Assembly: GCA_017627955.1 (NCBI GenBank)
Contig: JAGAFU010000009.1
Coordinates: forward strand, 1-61,271
DNA: 61,271 bases
From: Bacteroidales bacterium
GTDB lineage: Bacteria > Bacteroidota > Bacteroidia > Bacteroidales > UBA932
Reading direction: 5' to 3'
The translations under genes and the position numbers were made by a program. The notes under the pieces are model-generated. The model ran no database searches. It saw only the letters and a program-made list of their open reading frames with translations, and was not told where the DNA came from. Below, piece by piece: positions 6,230 to 24,251 of this stretch (within the stretch, counting starts at the first letter, position 1; every line of letters begins with the position of its first letter).

Positions 6230-6292
6230 TTCCCCGGTCCCTGAGTGATGTTTCCCGGTCCGTGGGTGATGTTCCCCGGTCCCTGAGCGGAG
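6230..6292 (+). repeat. Three 21-bp tandem repeats after the fusion gene
   Basis: Units at 6230-6250, 6251-6271 and 6272-6292 share the core CCCGGTCC(C/G)TG(A/G)G and begin one base after the stop codon of the fusion gene. The third unit runs into the palindromic family-A element, suggesting the array grew from the edge of that element. Confidence 0.8.
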
Positions 6293-6304
6293 TCGAAGGG
6301 CCGG
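6274..6304 (+). repeat. Family-A palindromic element, extragenic copy
   Basis: Contains GGTCCCTGAGCGGAGTCGAA plus GGGCCGG, the same core found inside two genes at 12556-12620 and 24074-24154. Here the left arm (TTCGACTCCGCTCA) is missing. Confidence 0.8.
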
Positions 6305-6336: not shown

Positions 6337-6422
6337 GCCGGTAGAGGTCCAACCTTCGGCACCTCTACCTGCGAAAACGGCCTTAAATGCCGGTAGAGGT
6401 CCAACCTTCGGCACCTCTACCC
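6337..6422 (+). repeat. REP doublet upstream of the RAYT gene
   Basis: Two palindromes, 6337-6369 and 6389-6422. Each has the stem GGTAGAGGT/ACCTCTACC closing a short loop containing CCAACCTTCGGC. They are in the same orientation with a 19-base spacer that includes AACGGCCTTAAAT. The same unit flanks the other side of the transposase gene. Confidence 0.9.
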
Positions 6423-6539: not shown

Positions 6540-7445
6540 ATGAAAAAGTATTTCTTAATCACAACCGACCACCTGGAGGATTCGCTCTGGTTCCGTGACA
6601 ATGAGGATTTCGTCACCGGAATGAATATGGTCGCTGTACAGGCATCAATGTCCGAGGTTGTCGTACTTGCCTTTATCCTAATGTCCAATCATGTCCATTT
6701 TGTCGTTTATGGAACCAGGCGGGATGCGGAAGAGTTTATTAGCAGGTATAAGGGCCGTTACTCCCAGTATTATGGCAGGAAATGGGGCGTGAAAGAGTTC
6801 TTGAGAAGGAACAAAGCTGAAGTAGAGCCGATTTCAGAGAATCAGGAAGATTTGGAACGCACCATCGCTTATGTTATCATGAACTGTGTCGCCGCGAGAA
6901 TCTGCCTCCATCCGGGCCAGTACCCATGGGGTTGCGGAAACTGTTTTTTCCAAGTAAAGTCTGAAGGTCTCCCCGGCTGCTCAAGAATTAAGTCCGTTCC
7001 CGGGAGGAGACAAGTTAAAGACATCTCTAAAAGGGCGTTATCCAAACTCCTTCATAGCGACGTTCAAAATTTGCCGGGCGATTGGACCTTTTCAGATGAA
7101 GGGTATATTTTGCCTGAATCTTACATAGATGTCCATGCGGTAGAAACACTGTTCCGTACACCTGCACGGATGGATTATTTCCTTAGGACATCATCTAAGG
7201 CGAAGAAAAGGTTGGAAGATAAAGACGATAATTTGCCGTCTTTCAAAGATCAGGTGATCAGCGTCGCTGTTCCGGATCTTTGCCTGAGTCTTTTCCAGAA
7301 AAAGCGTTTCGAGGATCTACAGGAGCAGGAAAAGACTGAAATGCTTCGGCAACTCCGCTACCGCTTCAGCGCTGGTCCCAATCAGCTGGCCCGTGTCTGC
7401 GGGATAACCTATGCTGAAGCCGCCCGCCTTCTCGATTCCAGATAG
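6540..7445 (+). CDS. REP-associated tyrosine transposase (RAYT), Y1_Tnp family
   Basis: 301 residues. The HUH metal-binding motif is NHVHFVVYG near residues 57-65, preceded by VLAFILMS. The helix FISRYKGRYSQYYGRKWG (about 75-92) carries candidate catalytic tyrosines. The C-terminal SAGPNQLARVCGITYAEAARLL looks like a helix-turn-helix for REP recognition. The family makes single-strand nicks at REP hairpins. The gene appears intact, with no frameshift, and is bracketed by REP doublets 120 bases upstream and immediately downstream. No family-A or NAD-synthetase-type palindrome shares the REP stem, so this enzyme probably does not mobilise those. Confidence 0.88.
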   Translation: MKKYFLITTDHLEDSLWFRDNEDFVTGMNMVAVQASMSEVVVLAFILMSNHVHFVVYGTRRDAEEFISRYKGRYSQYYGRKWGVKEFLRRNKAEVEPISENQEDLERTIAYVIMNCVAARICLHPGQYPWGCGNCFFQVKSEGLPGCSRIKSVPGRRQVKDISKRALSKLLHSDVQNLPGDWTFSDEGYILPESYIDVHAVETLFRTPARMDYFLRTSSKAKKRLEDKDDNLPSFKDQVISVAVPDLCLSLFQKKRFEDLQEQEKTEMLRQLRYRFSAGPNQLARVCGITYAEAARLLDSR

Positions 7446-11247: not shown

Positions 11248-12366
11248 ATGTCAGAAGAGATTATAAACCAGTATGAGGAAGAGGACGAGATCGACATCAT
11301 GGCGATGCTCGCCAAACTTCTCAAGAAGTGGAAGTTCATATTCCTTGTGACCTTCATTTTCAGTGCATTGGGCGTTTTCGCGGCATTGAAGATGAAAAGG
11401 GAATATACCGTCAACATCACCCTCGCTCCGGAGCTCCAGAACAGGAGCAACAGCACCGTCTCTGCTATCGCCAGCATGATGGGTATGGGCGGGATGAGTA
11501 TGAACTCCACTCCTGATGCCCTGAACATCCTGCTGTTCCCCCAGATCAGCTCCAGTACTCCCTTCCTGTCCTCGATTCTTCCTGTCGAGGTGACCCCTTT
11601 TGTCACGAAGAAAGATGAGATTGCCGGTGTCCGTCCTGACACTGTCTCGGTCTTTACCCACATGCTTGGCCGTGACAAGGAGTTGTCCCCGAGAAAGCAA
11701 AGGAAGATGGAAGAGGCTGACGCCAAGTACCTTTACGACGACACCAAGATTGATCCCACAAGCCTTACGCCCCGTCAGGGTGCGGCCATAAAGGCTCTCC
11801 GCTCCGCGATCACTACGACTGTGGACAACAAGACAGGAGTCACATCTATCAGCGTCGTGATGGACGACAGGATGATCGCTAAACAGGTTGCGGACACTGT
11901 CTGCCAGCGCCTTCAGGACTTCGTGATCGCTTACAGGATCAAGAAGGCCCAGGACGATTACAATTATTATGTTGATATGGCCGAGGAAGCCAGGGTGAAG
12001 CTCGTGAAAGCCCAGGCCGCTTACGCTTCACGTGTTGACTACGATCGTAGCGTCATCCTCCAGTCGGTCAACAGCGAGCGGGAGAGGCTCCAGAACGAGG
12101 CCAATCTCGCTAACCAGCTTTATTCCCAGATGGTCCAGCAGAGGGAACTTGCCAAGGCCAAGATCCAGGAGGTCAAGCCCGTCTATGCTGTCGTACAGCC
12201 TGCTACGCTGCCTCTTCGCGCGTCCAACAGCCGCGCCAAGGTTTGCATAATCTGGTTTGCTATCGGCTTCATTCTTTCTTGTGCGTGGGCCCTTTTCGGC
12301 GAAGATCTCTGGAAGAAGATGATGGTGGCTCTCAAGGAGTCCGACGAGGAAACCGCTGATGAATGA
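11248..12366 (+). CDS. Wzz-type chain-length determinant / polysaccharide co-polymerase
   Basis: 372 residues with the typical two membrane segments: FIFLVTFIFSALGVFAAL near 32-50 and VCIIWFAIGFILSCAWALF near 333-351. The periplasmic part between them contains a helical region (about 230-310, DDYNYYVDMAEEARVKLVKAQAA). It lacks a fused C-terminal tyrosine-kinase domain: the protein ends about 20 residues after the second membrane helix in an acidic tail. The family sets polymer length together with the export channel. Its 3' end overlaps the start of the Wzi-like gene by 8 bases. Confidence 0.87.
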   Translation: MSEEIINQYEEEDEIDIMAMLAKLLKKWKFIFLVTFIFSALGVFAALKMKREYTVNITLAPELQNRSNSTVSAIASMMGMGGMSMNSTPDALNILLFPQISSSTPFLSSILPVEVTPFVTKKDEIAGVRPDTVSVFTHMLGRDKELSPRKQRKMEEADAKYLYDDTKIDPTSLTPRQGAAIKALRSAITTTVDNKTGVTSISVVMDDRMIAKQVADTVCQRLQDFVIAYRIKKAQDDYNYYVDMAEEARVKLVKAQAAYASRVDYDRSVILQSVNSERERLQNEANLANQLYSQMVQQRELAKAKIQEVKPVYAVVQPATLPLRASNSRAKVCIIWFAIGFILSCAWALFGEDLWKKMMVALKESDEETADE

Positions 12367-13864
12367 TTTTATAATATCCCTGATGCTGATGGGAGCGCTC
12401 TCCTCTGGAGGGTCGCTCCCTTTTTGGATGTATTCCAACCAATATGGTCTGATGCCGGAGTCTTCCGGCGCCCTGGCGGTTGCTTCGATCCGTTCGGAGT
12501 ATGATCCTGAGAAAACTCTCCAGTGGCGCTTTGGCGCCTCCCTCGCCGCCAACTGTGGTTCGACTCCGCTCACCAACCGGTCCCTGAGCGGAGCCGAAGG
12601 GCTGAGCGGAGCCGAAGGGCCGTCCCTCATCCCCTCCGAACTCTACACTGGCCTCAAATGGAAAGCCCTCTCCCTTGACCTCGGCCTCAAGCATCACGAC
12701 CTCGACTACTACGGCGCCGACACCCCAACCCTCGGCTCCCTCTCCAGCACCGGCGGCCATATTCTATGGACCGGCAACTCCCGCGCGATTCCAGGCTACA
12801 CAGCCAACCTCGAGCCCGTCGCCGTGCCATTCACTGCCGGGCGAGTCAAGGTTTTCGGATCCTGGGGCGACTATCGCACCTTCGACAACCGCTACATGAA
12901 AGGCGCTCTCCTCCACCGCGTTAAGGCTGGGCTGGACATCAAGATAACCGAGAGACTCGATTTCCACGGCGAAATGGACCATTATGCCCTCTGGGGCGGC
13001 GAGGGTCGCGGAATATCCATGCCCGTTAACTTCTCCAATTATTTCCGGGTCGCCACCGGAAGGGGAGCATCGGCCTCCGGAACGACCAGCGACCAGCTCA
13101 ACGTGATCGGTGACCAGAGGGGGAGCGAGCTGTTCCGCCTGAACTGGCGGGGCAATGGCTGGAGGCTTTCCTTCCAGCACGACATTCCTTACGACGACGG
13201 CTCAGGAATGGGTTTCCAGAATCGTCCGGACGGAGTCAACACACTTTGGTTCGGCTTTGATCGCAAGGACCGTTGGGTGACAGATGTTCTCTATGAATAT
13301 CACTACACGATGTACCAGTCCGGCACCCGTCACGACCGCCCGACAACTGAAAAGGAGCGCGAGAAGCTGGATCCTTCCGACCAGTACCACTACTGGCATC
13401 ACATCATCGGCGGTGGGGACAATTACTTCAATAATGGTGAATATCGTTCCGGCTGGACTTATTACGGCAGGACCATCGGCAATCCGCTTTTCTTCCCGGC
13501 CGGGACTCATGAGGGCACTTGGACTGCCAGCCAGGTGGTTCTGGGAGTCGAGAACAACCGCCTGAAGGCCCATCATTTCGGCCTTGCCGGAAAGCTGTTC
13601 CGTAAGGCTCCCTACAAGTTGATGCTGACCTACAGCCTCAATTACGGAACCTACCATAACCCGTACACCGGTGAGTCTCAATGGGGTAAACCCTGGGGAA
13701 CGGTGAAGGAGACTCCTCTTCGCCAGCTGAGCGCGGCGTTTATGGGAGAGGTTCCCGACCTGCTCCGTGGCCTGGCACTGACCTACGGGTTATTCGCGGA
13801 CAGGGGAGAGCTGCTTCCGGACACCGTCGGAGCCACTATCGGGCTCCGTTACACCATTCAGTAG
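12359..13864 (+). CDS. Capsule assembly Wzi family outer-membrane protein
   Basis: 501 residues. The N terminus (MNDFIISLMLMGALSSGG) is short and lacks the basic residues of a normal signal peptide. It is followed directly by SLPFWMYSNQYGLMPES, the conserved beginning of mature Wzi-like porins. The body is rich in amphipathic beta strands and ends TIGLRYTIQ. The family anchors or assembles capsule at the outer membrane. Residues about 67-88 (GSTPLTNRSLSGAEGLSGAEG) are encoded by an in-frame palindromic element that also occurs inside the deaminase gene at 22923-24251. It lies in the segment before the strand LIPSELYTGLKWKAL, so probably in a loop. Four bases separate it from the glycosyltransferase. 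Confidence 0.85.
   Translation: MNDFIISLMLMGALSSGGSLPFWMYSNQYGLMPESSGALAVASIRSEYDPEKTLQWRFGASLAANCGSTPLTNRSLSGAEGLSGAEGPSLIPSELYTGLKWKALSLDLGLKHHDLDYYGADTPTLGSLSSTGGHILWTGNSRAIPGYTANLEPVAVPFTAGRVKVFGSWGDYRTFDNRYMKGALLHRVKAGLDIKITERLDFHGEMDHYALWGGEGRGISMPVNFSNYFRVATGRGASASGTTSDQLNVIGDQRGSELFRLNWRGNGWRLSFQHDIPYDDGSGMGFQNRPDGVNTLWFGFDRKDRWVTDVLYEYHYTMYQSGTRHDRPTTEKEREKLDPSDQYHYWHHIIGGGDNYFNNGEYRSGWTYYGRTIGNPLFFPAGTHEGTWTASQVVLGVENNRLKAHHFGLAGKLFRKAPYKLMLTYSLNYGTYHNPYTGESQWGKPWGTVKETPLRQLSAAFMGEVPDLLRGLALTYGLFADRGELLPDTVGATIGLRYTIQ
12556..12620 (+). repeat. Family-A palindromic element inside the Wzi-like gene
   Basis: Left arm TTCGACTCCGCTCA at 12559-12572; right arm TGAGCGGAGCCGAA at 12585-12598 (one mismatch), repeated at 12603-12616. 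The intervening CCAACCGGTCCC forms the loop. The element keeps the frame and encodes GSTPLTNRSLSGAEGLSGAEG. Confidence 0.9.
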
Positions 13865-15061: not shown

Positions 15062-16987
15062 ATGAGAAGTCGATTTAATCTTTTCGAATGGTATTTTTCC
15101 AAGCGGACACTGCCTTATTGGTGCGTCCTTCTTCTGGATTGTTTTATCATTCTTTGCTCCGGAATATTCGTATATTGGGCATTTTACAGAGGTGCCGCCC
15201 TCCAAAGGAATTTCTTCCCTCTTATCAGGGTGCTCCTCATCTACATCGCGGTCAGCTTCGTGTTTTTCCGCTTGTTCAGGACCTATGCGGGTATCCTGCG
15301 CTTCTCATCGTTCAAGGACCTGATCCACATTTCCATGGCCATGGGATTCTCTTTCTTGGTGTCCCTGGTCATCCACCTGTTCGTCTATAAAGCTCCCGAG
15401 ACCGCCCTGGCGCATCTCACAGCCCGTAGCCTGCTATTCATATTCTTGCTTTCCATCGCCCTCATGTGGCTGGAGCGGATCATGATCAAGCTTTTGTACG
15501 ATGCCAGTTTCAGTGACCGGGACGCGAAGAACACCTTCATTTACGGAACCAGGGAAGGCGGTGTCGCCTTGGGAAAATTTGTCAAGAGCGAGAAACCTGC
15601 CCGCTACAACCTCAAGGGCTTCATTTCCCACGATCCGGCATATTACCATAAAGGCACTTACCTCCTTGGAGAGCCTGTTTTCAGCCCGTCCGACGACCTC
15701 GAGTCAATCCTGGAGGAAAAGAGGATCAAGGCTGTCCTTGTCCCAGCCATTCGTCTGGATGATTTCAGGGCCGACACTGATCTTCAGGATCGCCTGATCC
15801 GGAGCGGAGTCAAGATTTATTTCGCCCAGTCGGCCCTCGAGGCAGGCGAGGAGGATAGCGTGATCCCCACGATTGCCCTTAAAGAAGTTAGTGTGGAGGA
15901 TTTGCTTCCCCGTGATGTTATCGACGTGGACCTTGAGTCTGTCGCCGCCGCCATAGCCGGGAAGCGTATTCTTGTCACCGGGTCGGCCGGCAGCATCGGT
16001 AGTGAGATCGTGCGCCAGGTGGCCTCTTTTTCTCCCGAGGAGATGATGCTGATCGATTCCGCCGAGACACCCCAGCATGACATCAGGCTGATGATGGCCA
16101 AGGATTATCCTTCCGTGAAGGCTTCCACGGTCGTGACCAGCATAGCCAACGCCGACAGGATGGAAGCTATCTTCAGCTCCTTCCGTCCCGACATCGTCTT
16201 CCACGCCGCCGCCTACAAGCACGTCCCCATGATGGAGGACAATCCTTCCGAGAGCATCCAGAACAATGTCTACGGCACGAAAGTGCTTGCCGACCTTTCG
16301 GTCAAATATGGTGTCAGCAAGTTCGTCATGATCTCGACCGACAAGGCTGTGAATCCCACGAATGTCATGGGTTGCTCGAAGCGTATTTGCGAGATCTACG
16401 TCCAGAGTCTCGACAAGGCTGAGCGCGACGGTAAGGTCGAGGGCCACACCCAGTTTGTCACCACCAGATTCGGTAATGTGCTGGGTTCCAATGGTTCAGT
16501 GATTCCGATATTCGAAAAGCAGATCAAGTCCGGCGGTCCAGTCACGGTTACTCATCCTGACGTCATCCGCTATTTCATGCTGATCCCCGAGGCTTGCAAA
16601 CTGGTACTCGAGGCTGGCACCAAGGGGAACGGGGGAGAGATATTCGTCTTCGACATGGGCAAGCCTGTCAAGATCGCCGATCTCGCGAAGAGGATGATCG
16701 AGCTGAGCGGAGCCAAAGGTGTCGAGATCAAGTTCACCGGCCTGCGGGATGGCGAGAAGCTTTACGAGGAAGTCCTTGGAGACAAGGAGGTTACGAAGCC
16801 TTCCTTCCATGAGAAGATCCGCATCGCCGTTGTTCGTGAATATGATTTCGCCCAGGTCAAGTCCAGCATTGAGGACCTGATCGCGATCTCTCATGAATAT
16901 GACGATCTGAAGACCGTCGCCGCGATGAAGCACATAGTCCCTGAGTTCATCAGCAACCATTCTGTTTACTCTGTCCTGGACAAATAA
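15062..16987 (+). CDS. Membrane nucleotide-sugar 4,6-dehydratase (CapD/PglF/WbpM type)
   Basis: 641 residues. The N-terminal 150 residues hold four hydrophobic segments. A CoA-binding-like Rossmann region follows (FIYGTREGGVALGKF). The catalytic short-chain dehydrogenase domain starts with RILVTGSAGSIGSEI (about 302-316). HAAAYKHVPMMEDNP and MISTDKAVNPTNVMGCSKR (about 421-440) follow; the latter replaces the usual YxxxK by the variant seen in WbpM/PglF. The family converts UDP-GlcNAc to the 4-keto-6-deoxy sugar, the first step toward bacillosamine, QuiNAc or FucNAc. It suggests that the polysaccharide contains a 6-deoxy-amino sugar. Confidence 0.88.
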   Translation: MRSRFNLFEWYFSKRTLPYWCVLLLDCFIILCSGIFVYWAFYRGAALQRNFFPLIRVLLIYIAVSFVFFRLFRTYAGILRFSSFKDLIHISMAMGFSFLVSLVIHLFVYKAPETALAHLTARSLLFIFLLSIALMWLERIMIKLLYDASFSDRDAKNTFIYGTREGGVALGKFVKSEKPARYNLKGFISHDPAYYHKGTYLLGEPVFSPSDDLESILEEKRIKAVLVPAIRLDDFRADTDLQDRLIRSGVKIYFAQSALEAGEEDSVIPTIALKEVSVEDLLPRDVIDVDLESVAAAIAGKRILVTGSAGSIGSEIVRQVASFSPEEMMLIDSAETPQHDIRLMMAKDYPSVKASTVVTSIANADRMEAIFSSFRPDIVFHAAAYKHVPMMEDNPSESIQNNVYGTKVLADLSVKYGVSKFVMISTDKAVNPTNVMGCSKRICEIYVQSLDKAERDGKVEGHTQFVTTRFGNVLGSNGSVIPIFEKQIKSGGPVTVTHPDVIRYFMLIPEACKLVLEAGTKGNGGEIFVFDMGKPVKIADLAKRMIELSGAKGVEIKFTGLRDGEKLYEEVLGDKEVTKPSFHEKIRIAVVREYDFAQVKSSIEDLIAISHEYDDLKTVAAMKHIVPEFISNHSVYSVLDK

Positions 16988-22922: not shown

Positions 22923-24251
22923 TTAAAGTTGATTTACAATTGTTTCCAATGATTGACGACCGCCTTCGAGGATGTCCTCCTCGCCTTGCACCTTCCTGTC
23001 ACGCATCACAAGACGTCCTCCCGCTATGAGCGAGGAGATGCAGTCGCTGTGGGCTGAATAGATGAAGTTGGCCAGGAATGGGGCGGGGGAAAGGAAGAAG
23101 GTGCTGTCGGTGTCGATGATCTGGATGTCGGCGTCCCAGCCTTCCTCTATCTTCCCGGTCTTGAGCCCGAGGGCTTTCCCTCCGTTGATGGTCACCATGT
23201 TCAGCAACTCGTTCAGTGGCAGGACCGTAGGATCGTCCCGCCAGGCTTTCTCCACGATCGCGGCGGTTTTCATCGCCTCGAGCATGTCCAGGTTGTTGGA
23301 TGAGGCGCAGCCGTCCGTGCCGAGGCAGACATTCGCTCCGGCGTCCTTGAGCTCTTTGTAAAGAAACCTGTACCCGGAAGCGAGCTTTAGGTTGGAGTTT
23401 ATGTTATGGACGCAGTTGACACCTCGCCTGCCGAGGATCTCCACGTCTTTTTCCGAGAGCCAGAGGGAGTGGGCCGCGATCACATCCGGCCCCAGGATCC
23501 CTAGGGAGTCGAAATATTCGACGGGGGAGAGGCCTCCGTGCGCGGCTTTGCAATCTTTCACTTCACGGCGGGTCTCGCAGAGATGAATATGGATCCGAAG
23601 TCCTCGCTTCCGGGCAAATTCAGTGGCCCAAAGGATCATCGGCTCGCTCACGGTGTACACGGCGTGGATGCTCACGGCGAATTGTTGCCGTCCGAGATTA
23701 TCCTTGACCATCTCGTACATGGTCGCGCACTCATCTTTCTGCCTCGCGGTAATCTCCGGGTCGAAGTTGTCCAGGCAAGTGTAGGAGAACAAGCCCCTGA
23801 GACCGGTTTCCTCAGTGGCCTTCATGGCCATGCGGGAATGCCAGTACATGTCGTTGAATGAGGTGGTTCCGGTTTTTATCATCTCAAGGTTCGCGACCTT
23901 GGTGGCGCTGTAGACGAAAGGTCTGTCCAGATGGGACTCGATTCTCCAGATGTGGTCCAGCCAGTCGTGGAGGACCATGTCTTCGCCGATTCCCCTCATC
24001 AGGCTCATGGCGGCATGGGTGTGGGCGTTGACGAAGCCCGGCATGGCGGTTTTGCCGGTGCAATCTATGATTAGCCCTTCGACTCCGCTCAGCCCTTCGA
24101 CTCCGCTCAGGGACCGGGAAGGAGTCGAACCATGGTTGGTGAGCGGAGTCGAACCACCCGCCCGGGTTATCTTCGCGATCTTCCCATCCTTGACAAGGAT
24201 GTCAACCTGCTTACCGTCCAGCGTGATGTTTTTGAGAAATATGCTATCCAT
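22923..24251 (-). CDS. mtaD: 5-methylthioadenosine/S-adenosylhomocysteine deaminase-type amidohydrolase
   Basis: 442 residues. The metal site HxH is H77-T-H79 in PGFVNAHTHAAMSLMRG. Further motifs are SIHAVYTVSE, HIHLCETRREV, IAAHSLWLSEKD and LGTDGCASSNNLDM, all typical of the MtaD/SsnA/TrzN group; the exact substrate is inferred. Residues 33-60 (GSTPLTNHGSTPSRSLSGVEGLSGVEGL) are a palindromic element read in frame. It lies in the small beta-sandwich domain between KIAKITRAG and LIIDCTGKTAMPGFVNAH, where relatives have only a short turn. The same peptide is in the Wzi-like protein. It heads the operon with PNP, the small membrane protein and nadE. Confidence 0.87.
   Translation of the reverse strand: MDSIFLKNITLDGKQVDILVKDGKIAKITRAGGSTPLTNHGSTPSRSLSGVEGLSGVEGLIIDCTGKTAMPGFVNAHTHAAMSLMRGIGEDMVLHDWLDHIWRIESHLDRPFVYSATKVANLEMIKTGTTSFNDMYWHSRMAMKATEETGLRGLFSYTCLDNFDPEITARQKDECATMYEMVKDNLGRQQFAVSIHAVYTVSEPMILWATEFARKRGLRIHIHLCETRREVKDCKAAHGGLSPVEYFDSLGILGPDVIAAHSLWLSEKDVEILGRRGVNCVHNINSNLKLASGYRFLYKELKDAGANVCLGTDGCASSNNLDMLEAMKTAAIVEKAWRDDPTVLPLNELLNMVTINGGKALGLKTGKIEEGWDADIQIIDTDSTFFLSPAPFLANFIYSAHSDCISSLIAGGRLVMRDRKVQGEEDILEGGRQSLETIVNQL
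24074..24154 (-). repeat. Family-A palindromic element inside the deaminase gene
   Basis: Read on the minus strand: left arm TTCGACTCCGCTCA, a partial second copy (GGTTCGACTCC), then two right arms TGAGCGGAGTCGAAGGG. It is a slightly longer version of the element in the Wzi-like gene and again leaves the reading frame open. Confidence 0.9.

Follow-up and report, generated by a model that had tools for sequence, protein, structure and literature searches.

Palindromic repeats inside coding DNA are known mainly from Rickettsia, and intragenic REPs have been found in several other species, according to excerpts of two published accounts (PMC3733652, PMC10969869). Rickettsia palindromic elements (RPEs) are portrayed, in the parts of the literature cited, as dispersed palindromes found outside genes and also, in frame, within unrelated genes, where they typically fall in unstructured segments (PMC10969869, PMC2996958). 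Members of the CGTC REP superfamily, which includes RPE-4 and RPE-6, are short hairpins and dimers, some of them intragenic, and the cited portion of the source knows no dedicated transposase for them (PMC3733652). Intragenic REPs and RPEs are already on record in these excerpts (PMC3733652, PMC10969869, PMC2996958). What is new, as far as the open-licence literature shows, is a repeat family in Bacteroidales that is mostly intragenic and that can be contrasted with close relatives and with other families; the motif strings of the element do not occur in the open-licence literature searched.

The repeat described here resembles the RPEs, a likeness that an earlier sequence-only reading of this locus had proposed and that holds: it is palindromic, repeated genome-wide and placed, with the frame kept, in unrelated and still functional genes (43 open reading frames [ORFs]; dN/dS of 0.04 to 0.15 in three hosts), and it is absent from relatives’ orthologues (Wzi, PurL, Pgi, XylB, and the deaminase). 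It differs from RPEs in belonging to another phylum, in size (a single or paired hairpin, each of about 29 bp, against about 150 bp for RPEs in the part of a review available), and, compared by description and not by sequence, in being read in five frames, whereas each RPE family has one conserved peptide in the excerpted account (PMC10969869). Short hairpins, dimers, and some copies in genes are shared with the CGTC REPs, and at the second HemW site of a close relative, G066, the core is retained with a TGTC-AT stem. However, the tag of the main types is CCGGT and not CGTC, TGTC, or CCTC, their stems are CCC/GGG or TGG/CCA and do not start with AT, and most clusters lie in genes, whereas most REPs are intergenic in the cited part of PMC3733652. 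With GTAG REPs, BIMEs, and REPINs the repeat has in common its palindromes, its dimers, and a genome with RAYT-like genes (REP-associated tyrosine transposase), but it lacks the GTAG tag, and no RAYT gene is bracketed by the core on both sides in 30 loci. We consider it probable, at roughly 0.82 for the explanation as a whole, that this is a non-autonomous, REP-like palindromic repeat, forming hairpins of two main stem types, some of them paired head to head, which multiplied within genes of one clade and of which the frame-keeping copies in loops survived.

The palindromic core and its copies

The window, meaning the whole 61,271-nucleotide stretch of Bacteroidales DNA that was analysed, contains the repeat in two genes and outside genes. 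The first host (12359..13864, plus strand, 501 aa) encodes a Wzi-like outer-membrane beta-barrel, as indicated by a Pfam Caps_assemb_Wzi match (E, 1.7e-6; 27.8 bits, below the cut-off of 30.1) and by Foldseek, which among solved structures ranks E. coli Wzi (2ynk) first. Translation and homologue alignment place an in-frame insert, GSTPLTNRSLSGAEGLSGAEG, at residues 67-87 (12557..12619, plus strand). The arms and peptide seen here by the sequence-only reading are present: TTCGACTCCGCTCA (12559-12572) and TGAGCGGAGCCGAA (12585-12598) are complementary at 13 of 14 positions and are exact matches, on the minus and plus strand respectively, to the repeat core TGAGCGGAGYCGAA, the former flanked by TGG/CCA (B type) and the latter by CCC/GGG (A type). 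A third unit follows on the plus strand at 12603..12616, 18 bp downstream and in the same orientation as the A unit. The second host (22923..24251, minus strand, 442 aa) is an amidohydrolase/deaminase (Pfam Amidohydro_1, 1.7e-66) for which no NCBIfam match was displayed above its own cut-off; the copy claimed inside it is real and consists of the in-frame insert GSTPLTNHGSTPSRSLSGVEGLSGVEG (24075..24155, minus strand), with cores at 24078, 24096, and 24140. So is the extragenic copy, a single A-type unit, CCGGTCCCTGAGCGGAGTCGAAGGGCCGG, spanning 6276..6304 from CCGG to CCGG on the plus strand (core, 6284-6297). With up to two mismatches to the core allowed, the window holds nine matches, where shuffles average 1.19 and reach 4 at most. 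A one-mismatch core at 16704, inside a polysaccharide-synthesis gene, was excluded from the counts.

Across the 2.575-Mb genome the exact core occurs in 91 copies (reversed control, 0), all of which were examined with their flanks and grouped at 130 bp into 59 clusters. Two stem types dominate: the A type, CCGGT-CCC-core-GGG-CCGG, with inner triplets CCC/GGG (45 of 91 copies), and the B type, CCGGT-TGG-core-CCA, with inner triplets TGG/CCA and a looser 3' end (30 of 91). Stem pairs 1 to 3 beside the core are Watson-Crick in 90, 87, and 83 of the 91 copies, where independent columns would give 47, 46, and 44, and all three are kept in 65 of 73 in-gene copies and in 16 of 18 others. In genomes of other families the core is kept with matching stems that differ, e.g., GCC/GGC. 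Since the stem letters vary while pairing and core persist, core and fold are conserved. When folded as DNA, the window's B-A pair beats 200 of 200 shuffles, and single units are unremarkable, with 33 and 36 of 200 shuffles doing as well. Units are commonly spaced 18 or 24 bp apart, same-orientation spacings within genes are multiples of three in 16 of 17 cases, and neighbouring pairs within clusters lie in opposite orientation 13 times and in the same orientation 19 times. The genome-wide scale, the unit spacing, and the two stem types go beyond the earlier reading.

Part of the Wzi insert (12575-12619) also gives a weak match to the Rfam gut-2 RNA (RF02990), which at 32.2 bits falls below the gathering threshold of 39.8, and membership in that family was rejected. 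Among 10 further loci of the element nothing reached the threshold, and four loci (one of them also in the former set) gave nothing at E 0.1; neither gut-2 RNA nor gut-2 motif occurs in the open-licence literature searched. The gut-2 RNA might itself be a REP-type repeat.

Host genes, reading frames, and protein loops

Entirely within genes and in frame lie 47 of the 59 clusters and 73 of the 91 copies, distributed over 43 genes called by a purpose-built ORF picker trained on codon use, by which in-gene frames are open by construction; the coding share of the examined DNA is 0.906. By a simple frame test, 52 of 59 clusters fall within frames of 150 aa or longer; of the clusters that the picker left outside genes, four sit in open frames longer than 300 aa. 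An NCBIfam family match at 1e-5 was obtained for 39 of the 43 host ORFs, the others being L036:3977-4846, those at L049 and L051, and the Wzi-like protein, identified as above. By our count, 15 hosts score above the curated NCBIfam whole-protein cut-off: MtaB, MnmA, an ABC-F protein, a sulfatase maturase, PurL, YggS, YidC, KsgA (RsmA), MurF, Pgi, RsmE, FtsA, HemW, PrmC, and SSB. A link to capsule genes is rejected: the hosts, which include purL, pgi, murF, ftsA, ksgA, mnmA, hemW, prmC, yidC, and ssb, span purine synthesis, glycolysis, cell wall, cell division, and tRNA/rRNA modification. We also observe apparent gene fusions, namely AroD-AroA (L045:3525-5786), LacZ-phosphatase (L048:2063-6928), and sulfatase maturase-TIGR02757 (L038:5535-7523).

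Five of the six core frames are stop-free, and the absence of the stop-bearing frame from genes is built in, the hosts having been called as open frames. Copies in genes are read as LSGVEG (28), GSTPLTN (20), ERSR (10), LRLRSG (8), or FDSAQ (7), and uniform frame use is rejected at p 1.5e-4 with copies treated as independent. The element is not one peptide, nor does the family have one conserved peptide; the five frames yield unrelated ones. The bias toward small, uncharged or weakly charged peptides would fit selection for tolerance.

In an AlphaFold model of the Wzi-like protein (alignment of 22 sequences), residues 70-85 have pLDDT below 50 and lie between strands 54-67 and 89-101, in line with the tolerated beta-barrel loop that the sequence-only reading had predicted. 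The deaminase model (alignment of 32 sequences) likewise has residues 36-57 below 50, between strands 24-30 and 59-63. Judging from these models, the inserts apparently add short floppy loops to ordinary proteins. The insert sites of PurL and Pgi were placed on PDB matches by sequence alignment, and ITRAGGSTPLTN is an example of a predicted junction peptide across a loop. Comparison with G066 gives dN/dS of 0.045 for Pgi, 0.044 for MnmA, and 0.145 for HemW, ratios that indicate strong purifying selection on these three tested hosts.

Relatives and the contrast across the order

Comparison with relatives supports insertion into the Wzi-like gene, as had been inferred. Of 61 genomes, 22 gave a Wzi match, and in an alignment of 23 sequences that excludes two fragments (L093 and L094) the block is present in our genome and G066 only; all 21 other homologues are without it, and none of those aligned conserves the block without the palindrome. 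The G066 gene lacks the second A unit and is a net 15 nt shorter in the alignment. Of 30 aligned PurL sequences, ours has the element, those of G114 and G033 show another insert at that turn, and 27 have neither, although in seven of these the turn is about 5 residues longer. By eye, the in-frame insert of G114 and G033 (L128 and L131), SERSDAGSLRGTPLNPPGGCRG, is palindrome-like. The element in Pgi is found in our genome and G066 and is missing in 9 of 10 kin, and in XylB the site is occupied in our genome and empty in G066. At the insertion borders, where a MITE would leave a target-site duplication, XylB fits a duplication of CCGG, but Pgi and PurL do not and show some host bases replaced.

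Several loops are occupied by other material. None of 80 homologues of the deaminase has GSTPLTN or RSLSGVEG in the loop; one of them, L206 (RUG645), shows GGSGGVEG, which from its sequence is perhaps a relative of the element peptide, and L205 (RUG12619) and G066 carry another palindrome-type peptide there. In MnmA, PVPERSRR is common to our genome, G066, and G212, while G017 has VVLNEAKD, G096 has VILSAAKD, G114 has another long insert, and five kin are short. Occupation of the same loops by what appear from sequence to be different repeat families is, in our view, the most telling pattern. In one loop of HemW, long in-frame inserts of tens of residues occur in G066, G212, G017, and G068 (L318, L320, L321, and L324).

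Searches with Wzi and PurL found their closest match in G066. Judged by Pgi, HemW, and MnmA, G212 is similarly close to our genome, and it has only 11 copies. Comparison with G066 covered 760,701 bases and five loci from the searches, in which 14 of the 43 hosts were found at 65% identity or more: nine share the element, two are empty (XylB and PurL), and the remaining three (the deaminase, HemW, and an MsbA-like protein) each hold other material in at least one site. Unit number differs between the two genomes in SSB, Wzi, MFS, and ArgE. In the nine shared genes, differences amount to 22 of 163 positions in element flanks, 1,560 of 4,011 host third positions, and 10 of 188 in the core, the last figure being biased low since our own copies were picked for intact cores, with seven of the ten in Wzi, where units misalign. 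Such low divergence of the element could reflect homogenisation, hairpin constraint, or repeated arrival.

A homologue search with the deaminase named uncultured Bacteroidales of rumen and gut, with Candidatus Cryptobacteroides at 63% identity or less, and the genus is probably Cryptobacteroides. Within the genus the core occurs in 18 of 200 genomes (91 copies in ours, 68 in G066, 11 in G212, 5 in G076, and at most 3 in others), and within the order in 64 of 247. Because the reversed control also matches once in each of two of the 200 genus genomes and once in the 247 order genomes, a lone core match in any one genome could be accidental. The core has a wide distribution across the order, and intragenic lodging is established for our genome and G066. 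A frame test applied to all genomes, taking the longest frame that spans the cluster and has a start or is open at the sequence edge, places clusters in frames of at least 150 aa in 52 of 59 cases in our genome and 14 of 15 in G066, against 3 of 48 in five other families (G042, 0/8; G055, 0/12; G289, 2/14; G236, 0/8; G272, 1/6). For random windows of the same DNA the shares are 0.92 and 0.93 in our genome and G066, and 0.73, 0.80, 0.81, 0.67, and 0.80 in the five in that order, which allows for their G+C content of 0.36 to 0.46 against 0.53 in ours. The control samples comprise 8 of 9 (G042), 13 of 36 (G055, many copies of which are at contig ends), 14 of 73 (G289), 8 of 12 (G236), and 7 of 17 (G272) copies. 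The same core is thus mostly extragenic in samples of five families and mostly intragenic in one clade with many sequenced relatives, and this contrast opens to testing the questions of how mobile repeats come to lie in proteins and which loops tolerate them. There is a caution here too: where housekeeping proteins of such bacteria differ in loop length, mobile DNA and not adaptation may be the cause. CGTC-like palindromes lie in genes in 15 of 35 clusters in our genome, where the stretches counted had been selected for the core, and in 19 of 40 in G066, compared with 61 of 74 for the core family in both genomes (Fisher, 3e-6).

Spread of the repeat and rival explanations

We propose that the repeat multiplied and settled within genes in one clade of the genus. 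The surviving copies would be those that keep the frame in flexible surface loops, where they would be translated as loops, and gene-breaking, out-of-frame copies would have been purged. After landing, unit number would rise and fall, commonly by steps of 18 or 24 bp. The repeat may spread as a single-stranded hairpin that some enzyme, of Y1/RAYT type or other, mobilises in trans. An ordinary REP/RAYT system, in which one of the genome’s RAYTs moves the repeats and landing in genes is incidental, would agree with the hairpins and with some head-to-head pairs, as in the REP dimers described in the excerpt of PMC3733652, and with seven RAYT-like matches in the genome, one of them 242 bp from the extragenic copy. 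Yet among 30 RAYT loci (L175 to L204), which represent 30 of 55 matches in 12 genomes, the core is near just two, on one side only, and 17 hold other palindromes; RAYT number is not linked to copy number, G068 having 13 RAYT matches and no core and G076 no RAYT match and five cores; and the tag is CCGGT, not GTAG. We regard this account as unlikely; the locus flanks leave a RAYT unsupported as the cognate mover, and we retain it as a rival. That the peptide itself is selected, as a useful linker copied among proteins for its function, might explain why 48 of 73 in-gene copies are read in just two frames, LSGVEG and GSTPLTN, and why, even with the core figure biased low, elements differ less than host third positions in the nine genes. 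It seems very improbable in view of the unrelated peptides from five frames, the different palindromes that related species carry in some of these loops, the low confidence of the modelled loops, and stem pairing maintained within genes and elsewhere alike.

Local slippage, which would have built the repeats in place without dispersal, accords with the unit numbers that vary against G066 in four proteins, but the presence of one and the same core in 43 unrelated ORFs, and outside genes as well, contradicts it as sole cause; it explains growth after arrival only, and as a full account we give it almost no credence. Just as implausible is that ribosomes skip the hairpin or that it is cut from the RNA, leaving the insert out of the protein: the paired window form does fold well as DNA where single units do not, but the frame-keeping spacings in 16 of 17 cases would be needless if the insert were skipped. 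A variant of the preferred reading, insertion of a repeat that kept the frame and survived, is that the element or its mover is adapted to coding DNA, by units of 3n length (18 and 24 bp) or by gene-rich sites such as CCGG, because frame loss alone should purge most gene insertions. Our clusters are distributed as though gene boundaries did not matter: 52 of 59 fall in frames of 150 aa or longer, and random windows do so at 0.92. If only frame-keeping, stop-free insertions survive (at most 1/3 x 5/6) and all are harmless, about 73% would be in genes, and with one permissive site in five about 35%, compared with an observed 80 to 88%; CCGG occurs 7.25 times per kb within genes, against 4.00 in the remaining DNA. 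This in-gene share could arise from high tolerance, gene-rich targets, intergenic loss, or units of 3n length, and we hold the adaptation itself to be a tentative, rather doubtful option. Were it true, this would be a mobile repeat specialised for life inside proteins, with permissive loops as landing sites shared by several repeat families.

RAYT-like matches were found in 12 of 13 genomes searched, none above the family cut-off, which is also the case for the seven in our genome. The RAYT-like gene of the window (6540..7445, plus strand) matches NCBIfam NF047646 with E 3.7e-9 but at 36.6 bits against a cut-off of 80. The palindromes in the 17 RAYT loci mentioned above are perfect, with arms of at least 9 bp, and in six loci (L175, L181, L182, L187, L188, and L191) an identical palindrome stands on both sides of the RAYT. 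Upstream of the RAYT gene in the window, another palindrome recognised by eye, GCCGGTAGAGGTCC...CACCTCTACC, is present in two copies (6337-6369 and 6389-6421); containing GTAG, these may be the REP of the adjoining RAYT.
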